Shown here piece after piece: positions 28,241 to 41,508 of a DNA stretch of 64,000 bases. Origin of the DNA: Aquimarina sp. Aq78 (GTDB lineage Bacteria; Bacteroidota; Bacteroidia; Flavobacteriales; Flavobacteriaceae); NCBI RefSeq assembly GCF_900299525.1, contig NZ_OMKA01000001.1:682001-746000 (forward strand), in the 5' to 3' direction. The stretch's first letter is position 1. Each line of letters starts with the position of its first letter. Position numbers and translations under genes: made by a program. Under the pieces are notes generated by a model that saw nothing but the letters and a program-made list of their open reading frames with translations, was not told where the DNA came from and did not search any database.

Positions 28241-29074
28241 CTACTCTACCAAGCGTATTCCCTCTTTCTCAATAATAATTTTTCTTTCTTTGTACAGTGA
28301 TCCGATAGCTTTTTTAAAACTTTTCTTACTCAATTGAAAAACCTCTTTAATATCTTCGGGATCTGATTTATCATTCAGATCAATAAAACCACCGCTAGAT
28401 TTTAACTCTTTTAAAACCTGCTCTGCATTTGGCTCTATCCCTCTAAATCCGTGTCGCTGTAATGTAAGATCTATCTTGCCATCAGGGCGAACTTTTTTCA
28501 CAAACCCTTTAAGTTGATCTCCTGGTGTTATCTTTTGAAAAATTTCATCACCATATACTAATCCTAAATGTTTTTGATTTACAATCATATTCCAACCATG
28601 TGGTGAAGGATGAGAAGCGATAAGATCGACTTCATCATATGAAGACAGTAAAACTAAAGAATTATCTAAAAAAGCATTAGTCTTACTTGACGCAACAAGT
28701 CGATTGGTTTCTCCATCAAGGTACACATAAACAAGATACCAACTACCTGCTCTCATTTTTGAGGATTGTTCTCTAAAAGGAACAAAAAGATCTTTTTCTA
28801 ATCCCCAATCCAGAAAAGCACCAATTTCTGACACATTTGTACATTTTAAATAAGCAAAAGATTTTACAGTTGTAAAAGGCTCTAAGGTAGTAGCAACAAT
28901 ACGCTCTGAACTATCCAAATACACAAAAACCTTTAAAACATCTCTTATTTGAAATTGTTCTGGCACATACTTATTAGGCAATAAAACCTCATCCCCTTCT
29001 TCGTCACAAAGATAAATTCCTTGATCTCTTTCTCTAACGACCTCTAACATATTATATTCCCCAAGCTTAAGCAT
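28241..29074 (-). CDS. CvfB-like S1 RNA-binding protein
   Basis: 277 residues with three OB/S1-like domains followed by a winged helix, as in the CvfB family. Visible are the first strand pair GIYLCDEEGDEVLLPNKYVP, an S1 motif VSEIGAFLDWGLEKDLFVPF, another around LKGFVKKVRPDGKIDLTLQ, and the C-terminal helix LSKKSFKKAIGSLYKE. CvfB binds RNA and affects expression of surface and virulence proteins in Gram-positive bacteria; in flavobacteria the role is untested. A -7 element (minus-strand TATCTTTG, 29098-29091) precedes it, and a strong hairpin at 29128-29171 insulates it from the upstream DUF2853 gene. Confidence 0.88.
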   Translation of the reverse strand: MLKLGEYNMLEVVRERDQGIYLCDEEGDEVLLPNKYVPEQFQIRDVLKVFVYLDSSERIVATTLEPFTTVKSFAYLKCTNVSEIGAFLDWGLEKDLFVPFREQSSKMRAGSWYLVYVYLDGETNRLVASSKTNAFLDNSLVLLSSYDEVDLIASHPSPHGWNMIVNQKHLGLVYGDEIFQKITPGDQLKGFVKKVRPDGKIDLTLQRHGFRGIEPNAEQVLKELKSSGGFIDLNDKSDPEDIKEVFQLSKKSFKKAIGSLYKERKIIIEKEGIRLVE

Positions 29075-39487: not shown

Positions 39488-40645
39488 TTAACTTTTTGCT
39501 GATTCTATTAAGAATAATTCAGAGTTTAGGTGAAATTTTAACAGCTTAGCCTCTGGAACTATCTCTACTGTAACGTTTTCGTTATGTATTGTTCTTTTTT
39601 CGCCAATAATTTCCCTATGTCCGTAAAATTTTTGGAGATTATCAATTTTAACAATTTTTGGTATAAATTTCACACTATTTTTGATTAATTCTTCGCTGTA
39701 TTGAACGGCTATATCTACGTTTTTATCCTCTAACATCACATCTCTAATAATAATATCATAGAAGCATTTTCCATTTTCTGGTATTAAAAAATAATCTTTA
39801 TATCTATCTCCAATAATTTTAGTAGTCGTTATATATTGTATTGAAGTTATAAGAGAATAAAATATGTATTCTCTGGTTATTTCACGATCATAATCATTTG
39901 GATAATGCCCAGCTTCAAAAAGTATGGTCGGCACTCCCATATTAGCCAAAGTATCTCCTACACAATTTAAATTAAAACCATCATCATACCTTCCTACTTG
40001 ATTTGGAATGCACTGTTGGAGTACTGTATTCATTTTTGCTATGATTTCCATAGCTATTTTACGACTTGGAGTTATAGATCGTTCTAAATCACTTGCTGGA
40101 GATAAAAAAGATACTGTAGCGGGATATTTAGTTTCTCCTGCACTAAAAATAGTACGTTGTCCATGAAGGTTAAACGCAAAATCTGGTTGGATACGTTGAA
40201 CCAGTGTACTAAACACTACACTTTCCTTTTGTGTTTTTTGCTGCGCATCTCTATTAAGATCTACATCGTTATAATTAAGTCTTGTATATGCTTTTGCACC
40301 ATCTGGACTCAAAATAGGTACTATATATATTGTACACTCTTCTAAAATAGCTTTTGCCGAATCATTTGAGATGTCTGTAACGAAGTTTAAGAAATCAAAT
40401 ACAGCTTTTGTCGTTGTACTTTCATTACCATGCATCTGGGACCAAAACAAAAGTTTTTTGGATCCATTCCCTAATTTAATAAGATGTATAGGAGCATTAT
40501 TCTCTGAGAGTCCTATTTGTTCAATTTCGGTCTTCAAAGACAAAAGATTCAATAACGGAGAAATATGATCTAGAGTAATATAACGTCCAAATAAAGAAGG
40601 CTCTTTATAAGTATTAAACCAGTTATGTAGTATACGAGTATCCAT
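39488..40645 (-). CDS. M14 family zinc carboxypeptidase
   Basis: 385 residues. M14 zinc ligands are visible as His72 and Glu75 in SQMHGNESTT and His161 in FNLHGQR, with the substrate-binding YNDVDLNRDA (126-134) and a likely catalytic Glu in TILFEAGHYPND. No signal peptide is evident, so it is likely cytoplasmic, perhaps processing peptides or peptidoglycan fragments. It is divergent from the XRE regulator, and the shared 383-base gap is filled with palindromic operators, suggesting joint control. Confidence 0.9.
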   Translation of the reverse strand: MDTRILHNWFNTYKEPSLFGRYITLDHISPLLNLLSLKTEIEQIGLSENNAPIHLIKLGNGSKKLLFWSQMHGNESTTTKAVFDFLNFVTDISNDSAKAILEECTIYIVPILSPDGAKAYTRLNYNDVDLNRDAQQKTQKESVVFSTLVQRIQPDFAFNLHGQRTIFSAGETKYPATVSFLSPASDLERSITPSRKIAMEIIAKMNTVLQQCIPNQVGRYDDGFNLNCVGDTLANMGVPTILFEAGHYPNDYDREITREYIFYSLITSIQYITTTKIIGDRYKDYFLIPENGKCFYDIIIRDVMLEDKNVDIAVQYSEELIKNSVKFIPKIVKIDNLQKFYGHREIIGEKRTIHNENVTVEIVPEAKLLKFHLNSELFLIESAKS

Positions 40646-40712
40646 TAATTCATTTTAGAAAACTACGAAATTACTATAGTTTACTGAAGATTCATAACAA
40701 ATCAGATTAATA

Positions 40713-40809
40713 TTTACACTTGTAAACTAAAGGGGTGTTTACAAGTGTAACAACATCTTATTTACATTTGTAAACATTCAAAATTCATTCATTTGTTTAC
40801 ATAGTTAAA
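40713..40809. promoter_or_regulatory. Upstream cluster of TTTACA-N2-TGTAAA palindromes
   Basis: Four sites: TTTACACTTGTAAA (40713-40726), TTTACAAGTGTAAC (40738-40751), TTTACATTTGTAAA (40761-40774) and a degenerate TTTACATAGTTAAA (40796-40809). Centres are 25, 23 and 35 bases apart. A further half site TTTAC is at 40818. The cluster begins 68 bases upstream of the M14 carboxypeptidase ATG. Confidence 0.75.
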
Positions 40810-40951
40810 CAACAACGTTTACTATGTTTCTAAATGTATTCTAGTTATTAACAAAAAAAATAATCTAATCAAGTAATATAGAATATATATCTACAAATCA
40901 AGTGTTTAACTACATTAATCTAAATAAAGAGTTTAATATTAAATATCGTTA

Positions 40952-41037
40952 GTTTACAATTGTAAACCATTGTTTTCAACAAATTTGTTTACCTTTGTAA
41001 CCAATATTTACTTCTAAACTAGTTTACAATGGTAAAC
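40952..41037. promoter_or_regulatory. Promoter-proximal operators of the XRE gene
   Basis: Three palindromes centred exactly 35 bases apart: GTTTACAATTGTAAAC (40952-40967, perfect), TTTACCTTTGTAAC (40988-41001) and GTTTACAATGGTAAAC (41022-41037). The second covers the -7 element and the third contains the ATG at 41029. A weaker dyad TTTAATATTAAA lies at 40932-40943. Confidence 0.8.
40970..40997 (+). promoter_or_regulatory. Promoter of the XRE regulator gene
   Basis: TTG at 40970-40972 and TACCTTTG at 40990-40997 with a 17-base spacer fit the Bacteroidota -33/-7 pattern; transcription would start near 41003. The -7 element lies inside the middle operator, predicting autorepression. Confidence 0.6.
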
Positions 41038-41508
41038 AATAAGGATTTCGGTAAAAGAATCCAAAAAATAATGGATTATCACGCTGTATCTGCCTCATCT
41101 TTTGCAGATTACATGGGTGTAGGTCGTTCTTCTATTTCTCATATTCTTAGTGGGCGAAACAAACCTAGCCTTGATTTTGTAATGAAGATTGTTGATGCAT
41201 ATACAGATGTAGATTTACAATGGTTATTATATGGAAAAGGAACATTTCCTAAATCTGAACATGTTTCTGTTGAGAAAAAAATTCCTTTATCAGATGCCTC
41301 TACTATTTCTCAATCTACATCTGCTCCAACCACAATTTCTAAACAAGATTTATTTTCGCAGTCGTCACCAGAAGAAAATATAGCTGCACCAAATACTCCT
41401 CCACTTGAAAAAATTTCAAGAGTAATTTCTTCCGAAAATGAAATAGACAGAATTGTTATTTTTTATACAGATGGAACCTTTAGTTCATATCACATGAAAA
41501 AATCTTAA
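41029..41508 (+). CDS. XRE-family (Cro/CI-like) transcriptional regulator
   Basis: 159 residues. N-terminal HTH_3 domain: DFGKRIQKIMDYHAVSASSF followed by ADYMGVGRSSISHILSGRNK and PSLDFVMKIVDAYTDVDLQWLLYGKG (residues 6-71). A Ser/Thr/Pro-rich linker (about 75-130) joins it to a short conserved-looking tail DRIVIFYTDGTFSSYHM (139-155). I recall similar one-domain regulators across flavobacteria, but no known ligand. The operator cluster around its own promoter, with one site containing the start codon, strongly suggests autoregulation and control of the divergent M14 gene. Confidence 0.9.
   Translation: MVNNKDFGKRIQKIMDYHAVSASSFADYMGVGRSSISHILSGRNKPSLDFVMKIVDAYTDVDLQWLLYGKGTFPKSEHVSVEKKIPLSDASTISQSTSAPTTISKQDLFSQSSPEENIAAPNTPPLEKISRVISSENEIDRIVIFYTDGTFSSYHMKKS

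Follow-up and report, generated by a model that had tools for sequence, protein, structure and literature searches.

A predicted local autorepressor of the Flavobacteriaceae and its helically phased operator array between divergent promoters

Introduction

AraC, LacI and GalR form short DNA loops in which repression depends on helical phase, as shown by insertions; these proteins are unrelated to the regulator considered here, at whose locus the same dependence, usually shown by inserting bases, is readable from natural variation (66 loci). The CI repressor of phage lambda, in turn, carries a C-terminal domain for dimerisation and self-cleavage, and its OR1 and OR2 operators are spaced 24 bp apart. 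The present locus resembles lambda CI in the phage CI-type helix-turn-helix (HTH) of its regulator (PF07022), in its operator pairs and in the looping that would occur between operator clusters, and differs in that no C-terminal CI domain was detected and in the size of the loop, which would be about 200 bp. According to excerpts of PMC4207663, lambda CI forms a 2.3-kb loop as an octamer.

The same excerpts describe the Rco repressor of plasmid pLS20, with a predicted HTH, which acts on divergent, overlapping promoters through two multi-site operators separated by a 75-bp spacer; looping was concluded, the spacer contains a static bend, and a 5-bp (half-turn) insertion destroyed regulation (PMC4207663). 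By analogy, Rco is the closest system in its way of working: as far as the excerpted source goes, both loci combine an HTH repressor, divergent promoters and two operators, each with several closely spaced sites. Rco is a plasmid conjugation switch, whereas here the gene is chromosomal and occurs in nearly all genomes of the family; Rco acts at overlapping promoters with a 75-bp spacer, whereas the promoters here lie roughly 200 bp apart; and an operator over the start codon, together with a phase conserved across genera (comparative evidence), is found here and not, in the excerpts, for Rco.

The regulator is near-universal in its family, occurring in 238 of 249 genomes (194 of 202 genera), yet no earlier description of it or of its locus was found in the open-licence literature, as covered by the partial texts consulted. 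The comparative analysis presented here makes it likely that the regulator is a local autorepressor which shuts the two divergent promoters through cooperative binding in helical phase, probably via a short loop.

Materials and methods

The window, meaning the whole stretch of 64,000 nucleotides analysed (contig NZ_OMKA01000001.1, positions 682,001 to 746,000), is part of the 5.97-Mb genome of Aquimarina sp. Aq78. The named set comprised the best 80 of 506 relatives (L031 to L110), mostly Aquimarina and Flavobacterium, with counts given on 81 loci; the nearest named relative of the regulator protein, that of Aquimarina macrocephali, is 97% identical. The genus-wide set comprised the window and 80 family loci, each with a genus code of its own, i.e., 81 loci; the 80 were hand-picked from the listed, mostly better-scoring matches and are not a random sample, and at least three of them duplicate records of the named set. 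The family is taken to be Flavobacteriaceae on the basis of the named relatives. An additional 20 loci were taken from other families of the order.

Results and discussion

The locus and its regulator

Direct reading of the sequence confirmed what the sequence-only reading had noticed first: the three palindromes GTTTACNNNNGTAAAC (sites F, G and H; Table 1) have centres at 40959.5, 40994.5 and 41029.5, at spacings of 35 and 35 bp, the middle one overlapping the −7 box and the last one including the ATG of the regulator, whose codons 1-3 (ATG GTA AAC) lie within site H. A view limited to three sites proved too small, as the intergenic region contains a pair of site clusters, two promoters and, as a third element, M, with sites A, B, C and D also sitting between the regulator and the divergent M14 gene. 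This gene arrangement is constant: a divergent M14 homologue adjoins the regulator in 80/80 named loci and was matched in 78 of the 80 family loci; in the remaining two, a contig end truncates the sequence. In an order-level draw, which includes members of the family, the regulator was found in 102 of 146 genomes.

Table 1. Coordinates of the features of the locus in the window.
Feature	Position	Strand	Description
Divergent M14-family zinc peptidase gene	39488-40645	−	PF00246, E = 4e-12
Operator A	40712-40727		Many named-set loci have comparable sites between about −304 and −336
Operator B	40737-40752	−	Counterpart of the family site with TAnnTTTG facing the M14 gene; here TACACTTG, one mismatch
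Operator C	40760-40775		B-C 23 bp in the window
Operator D	40795-40810		35 bp from C
Element M	40891-40940	+	Conserved 50-bp non-palindromic motif between the clusters
Operator F	40952-40967		GTTTACAATTGTAAAC, perfect palindrome, upstream of the regulator promoter
Operator G	40987-41002	+	GTTTACCTTTGTAACC, holds the −7 box TACCTTTG (40990-40997) of the regulator promoter
Operator H	41022-41037	+	GTTTACAATGGTAAAC, includes the start codon and codons 2-3 of the regulator
Regulator gene	41029-41508	+	159 aa; XRE/CI-type HTH, variable linker, predicted C-terminal beta hairpin

The regulator matches PF07022 (38.6 bits, cut-off 22) and PF01381 (35.4 bits, cut-off 23), both above the Pfam gathering score. 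Its structure model consists of five helices at residues 4-68 with a pLDDT of about 90, followed by a linker modelled at low confidence and a hairpin of two strands (141-155). Across 52 sequences, the HTH is strongly conserved (RSSISHILSGRNKPSL), the linker is variable, and a short C-terminal motif, IxRIVIFYxDGTF (window 41443-41493), is conserved; going by the model, the hairpin is a candidate for oligomer contacts. Membership of the lambda CI repressors proper was rejected on the Pfam scan, which detected no lambda CI-type C-terminal domain, the model showing a linker and the short hairpin in its place. NCBIfam gave no match above cut-off, and a HigA-type antitoxin was likewise rejected (17.7 bits against a cut-off of 47.7). 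A sequence search of the PDB returned weak HTH matches only (best E = 0.026), and the PHROGs matches were mostly to general repressor or regulator families.

The operator array

With a weight matrix, 404 sites above 9 bits were found in the 81 genus-wide loci, compared with 6.0 in resampled sequence; because these loci also served to train the matrix, the contrast is a measure of enrichment rather than independent evidence. The usual layout in this set places B, C and D by the peptidase gene and G and H by the regulator. Site F is not general but present in some lineages: among genus-wide loci with B, C and either G or H, only 16 had F called, while F-G is 34-36 bp in 73 of the 81 named-set loci.

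Neighbouring sites keep few spacings. B-C is 24 bp in 68 of 70 genus-wide loci, the pairs having been defined beforehand at 23-25 bp, and C-D is 33-35 bp in 57/64. The spacing of G to H, for which the window had suggested a fixed value, is conserved in relatives, at 33-37 bp in 65 of the 72 genus-wide loci with both sites called and at 32-36 bp in all 81 named-set loci. When spacings between neighbours were taken without a preset class, 69 of 214 genus-wide values were 24 bp and 110 were 34-36 bp. None of the 136 C-D and G-H spacings fell at 26-32 or 38-42 bp, and values between the classes were rare: one of 30 bp genus-wide, and 30, 31 (three times), 32 and 39 bp among 341 in the named set.

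The paired sites are confined to the locus. In the 5.97-Mb genome, all 12 palindrome bases are matched at two places only, sites F and H, and the pair TTACNNNNGTAA spaced 34-36 bp occurs twice, both times at the locus, with 0 occurrences of the reversed-pattern control. A stricter operator-pair pattern, without a match in the window's own genome at that strictness, was found at 21 places in 19 of 120 genomes (control, none), all of them at this locus, 16 being assigned via regulator coordinates and 5 after fetching the sequence. The strict pair of genome G145 adjoins M14 where another contig begins; that of G124 has an AsnC-type gene as neighbour, and the fetched stretch contains no M14 match. 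A wider set of paired sites across the genome was therefore rejected, the 34-36 bp pairs and the strict pairs being confined to the locus, and the regulator is predicted to act locally in the genomes searched. Single sites in the window's own genome showed no enrichment at up to two mismatches (357 matches per strand, compared with 467 for the control), and TTTACANNTGTAAA with up to one mismatch gave at least 111 matches per strand compared with 62 for its control; scattered single sites may thus exist elsewhere in this genome. An exact TTTACAGTTGTAAA lies at window positions 28863-28876; among the matches listed, five are exact genome-wide, three of them at the locus.

Promoters within the array

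Promoters of Flavobacterium and Bacteroides fragilis have a −33 TTG and a −7 TAnnTTTG motif, as given in the excerpted text of PMC4306948. TAnnTTTG is present on the plus strand in 66 of 73 genus-wide G sites, and in B sites on the minus strand, toward the M14 gene, in 59/65, with 0/65 on the plus strand. The corresponding counts are 22 (minus) and 12 (plus) of 65 for C, and 6 (minus) and 5 (plus) of 60 for D, so that the boxes are concentrated in the two sites facing the genes. The −33 TTG, counted for G promoters only, was found 16-22 bp upstream of the G box in 29/73. Short leaders are suggested by the position of B, whose left edge and the predicted start codon of M14 are separated by 12-16 bp in 44 of 65 loci. 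For the window, where B departs from the −7 box by one mismatch, the distance to the M14 start is greater than these 12-16 bp.

Helical phase between the clusters

The C-G distance, measured in 66 of the 81 genus-wide loci, takes values of 201-203, 208-215, 219-227, 233-235, 243 and 255 bp, most commonly 213-214 bp (26 loci) and 222-224 bp (17 loci). Between 6 and 16 bp, the best period for these 66 distances was 10.5 bp (R = 0.75), and the observed R was not attained in any of 20000 sets with a jitter of up to 5 bp; when each distinct distance was counted once, R fell to 0.49. The named set required a triple with C-D of 33-36 bp, present in 72 of 81 loci with nine missing. In these 72 loci, D-G is 169, 177-181, 189-192 or 200-202 bp, with R = 0.78 at 10.5 bp; at the same period, R is only 0.64 for D-F and 0.48 for C-G, two distances better fitted by shorter periods. 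The distance between clusters thus appears to keep helical phase, as would be expected of a DNA-looping autorepressor, and does so more weakly in the named set. The window itself has a C-G distance of 227 bp, 3-4 bp off the family phase, shared by 17 of the 72 named loci, while its D-F distance of 157 bp, i.e., 14.95 turns, is in register.

On a tree of M14 and HTH sequences, in which 38 of 78 inner branches have less than 80% support, the turn class, assigned by rounding so that off-phase distances received a class too, changes at least 19 times. When starred branches alone are counted, the class of 21 turns requires only 5 changes, and the other listed classes at most 3. The locus would provide ready natural constructs for measuring loop geometry.

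Equal spacing within the window had been taken to suggest phase-dependent higher-order binding. The phase part of this proposal is backed by the near-whole-turn steps, whereas a placement of neighbouring sites on one face of the helix is not: at 10.5 bp per turn, 35 bp corresponds to 3.33 turns and 24 bp to 2.29 turns, which would leave each dimer turned by roughly a third of a turn relative to the next; what stays constant is the phase.

Proposed mechanism

From the sites, their conservation, the silent-site constraint described below, the phasing and the promoter-box overlap, all present in the sequences, we infer binding by the regulator, repression, cooperativity and a loop. The regulator would be a local autorepressor of its own gene, its dimers binding 16-bp palindromes placed on the −7 boxes, at G for its own gene and at B for the M14 peptidase gene. 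Further dimers would sit at C and D, next to the peptidase gene, at H, across the regulator's own start codon, and, in some lineages, at F. Binding would be cooperative between neighbouring sites spaced 24 or 35 bp, and the two clusters, about 200 bp apart, would be joined in a short DNA loop, so that the distance between them could change mainly by whole helical turns. At one of the two promoters, the regulator may activate rather than repress.

Element M and the geometry of the complex

Element M was found in 77 of 80 loci, the search having left out L158, which is cut by a contig end, and leave-one-out models gave the same position in 77/80. Its median score is 25.8, and that of the window 20.5; resampled sequence, by comparison, has its 99% level at 8.6 and reaches 17.1 at most. 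The M-G distance is near-fixed, at 90-96 bp in 65 of 70 loci and 103-104 bp in the other 5. The D-M distance, measured in 62 of the 80 loci, is 64, 74-75, 83-86, 95-97 or 105-106 bp in 61 of them and 130 bp in one.

These distances bear on a different account, in which the clusters act independently, each closing its own promoter, and the phase stems from a second protein bound at M that touches the repressor or RNA polymerase, with no loop between the clusters. This account is doubtful but deserves to be weighed. M is in phase with D, and the D-M distance is tighter (R = 0.92) than C-G (0.75) or D-G (0.79); the near-fixed M-G distance also speaks for a protein at M. On the other hand, a D-M range of 64 to 106 bp is wide for direct contact without DNA bending, and the core of M occurs elsewhere without clear excess. 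Allowing one mismatch, the core pattern was found at 26 places in 23 of 120 genomes, with 7 for the reversed control; 17 of the 26 are at the locus, 7 elsewhere and 2 in genomes without a listed regulator position, hence 7 to 9 places against the 7 of the control, which makes a general transcription factor unlikely. By its distribution, M seems to be local to this locus.

DNA bending at M was approached by curvature prediction with wedge parameters: mean predicted curvature is 46.9, 47.9 and 43.1 degrees at −140, −130 and −120, compared with 34.0 degrees in resampled sequence, and is also raised at −260 (46.5) and +20 (44.8). Compared with its own resampled sequence, M has a mean curvature z of 0.43, with 46 of 77 loci positive. 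An Rfam search of the intergenic region returned a single match of 18 bits, with a cut-off of 101.

A more speculative proposal, to which we give somewhat less credence still, is that the regulator and the locus-specific 50-bp M form a single wrapped nucleoprotein complex, family-wide, with an operator code reaching into the regulator's first codons. With steps of 2.3 or 3.3 turns, each site is rotated by roughly a third of a turn relative to its neighbour, a geometry that would fit DNA wrapped on a protein core better than a flat loop. If this were true, evolution would have kept the geometry of the complex by changing lengths mostly in whole turns. The short loop formed by an autorepressor remains the preferred reading.

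The start-codon site

Under that reading of a looping autorepressor, the overlap of H with the start codon would result from a very short leader combined with the need to keep the site at about 35 bp from G, and the operator would consequently dictate the silent positions of codons 2-3. H is located at exactly −7 in 73 of the 81 genus-wide loci, at −17 or −18 in 6, and was not called in 2. Of the 73 loci in which H is at −7, 72 have AAC as codon 3, compared with 136 of 446 Asn codons (30%) in the rest of the gene; at codon 2, Val is encoded by GTA in 35/37 (rest of the gene, 146/467) and Ile by ATA in 32/32 (rest, 144/614), these statistics counting as independent loci that are not. Codon 3 is likewise AAC in 74 of 76 non-shifted named loci. 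The silent-site constraint looked for in relatives was thus borne out. The overlap had also been said to force a Val-Asn choice, which fails for Val, as codon 2 encodes this residue in 37 of the 73 loci, Ile in a further 32 and Leu in 4; its first base is nearly free (G in 50%). The locus offers a clear case in which a DNA operator would dictate synonymous codons.

The tie between operator and start codon, suggested by the window, is common without being strict. In ten loci H lies about one turn upstream, at −17 to −19; nine of these keep 35-36 bp to G, and L164 has 25 bp. Judging from these shifts, the operator belongs with the array rather than with the ATG. Among the ten shifted loci, 5 have AAC as codon 3, 2 have AAT and 3 encode Asp there, which amounts to a partial release of the coding constraint. 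This residue of AAC is what favours an explanation in which codons 2-3 are kept for protein or translation reasons and the operator match is coincidental: xTAAAC is retained in five of the ten (L115, L122, L128, L164 and L046) although the operator has moved. We nevertheless regard such a coincidence as very improbable, because the remaining five shifted loci have AAT, GAT or GAC, the silent positions are constrained while the residue at codon 2 varies, and the outer base of the non-coding site C (C in 94%) is conserved about as well as that of H (98%). Least credible of all is an RNA hairpin controlling translation with the AUG in the loop of a 6-bp stem, since the 57-nt window RNA, although predicted to fold in this way (−7.0 kcal/mol for the whole stretch), does so no better than 26 of 200 shuffles (z = −1.06), the coding half keeps its outer C in 98% while the pairing G is kept in only 56%, similar palindromes occur far upstream, and in the shifted loci the palindrome departs from the AUG and stays with the other operators.

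Outside the family, none of the 20 loci from other families of the order has a site at −7 of an ATG start, as assigned by a nearest-ATG rule that leaves some starts doubtful. In four of them (L193, L196, L197 and L200), the same palindromes occur elsewhere upstream of the regulator, e.g., at −71/−48/−15, with spacings of 22-23 and 33-34 bp. A few regulator genes appear to start with a codon other than ATG, namely ATC in L063 and L083 (at 2501) and TTG in L170 and L189; in L063, L083 and L170, the −7 operator is kept all the same.
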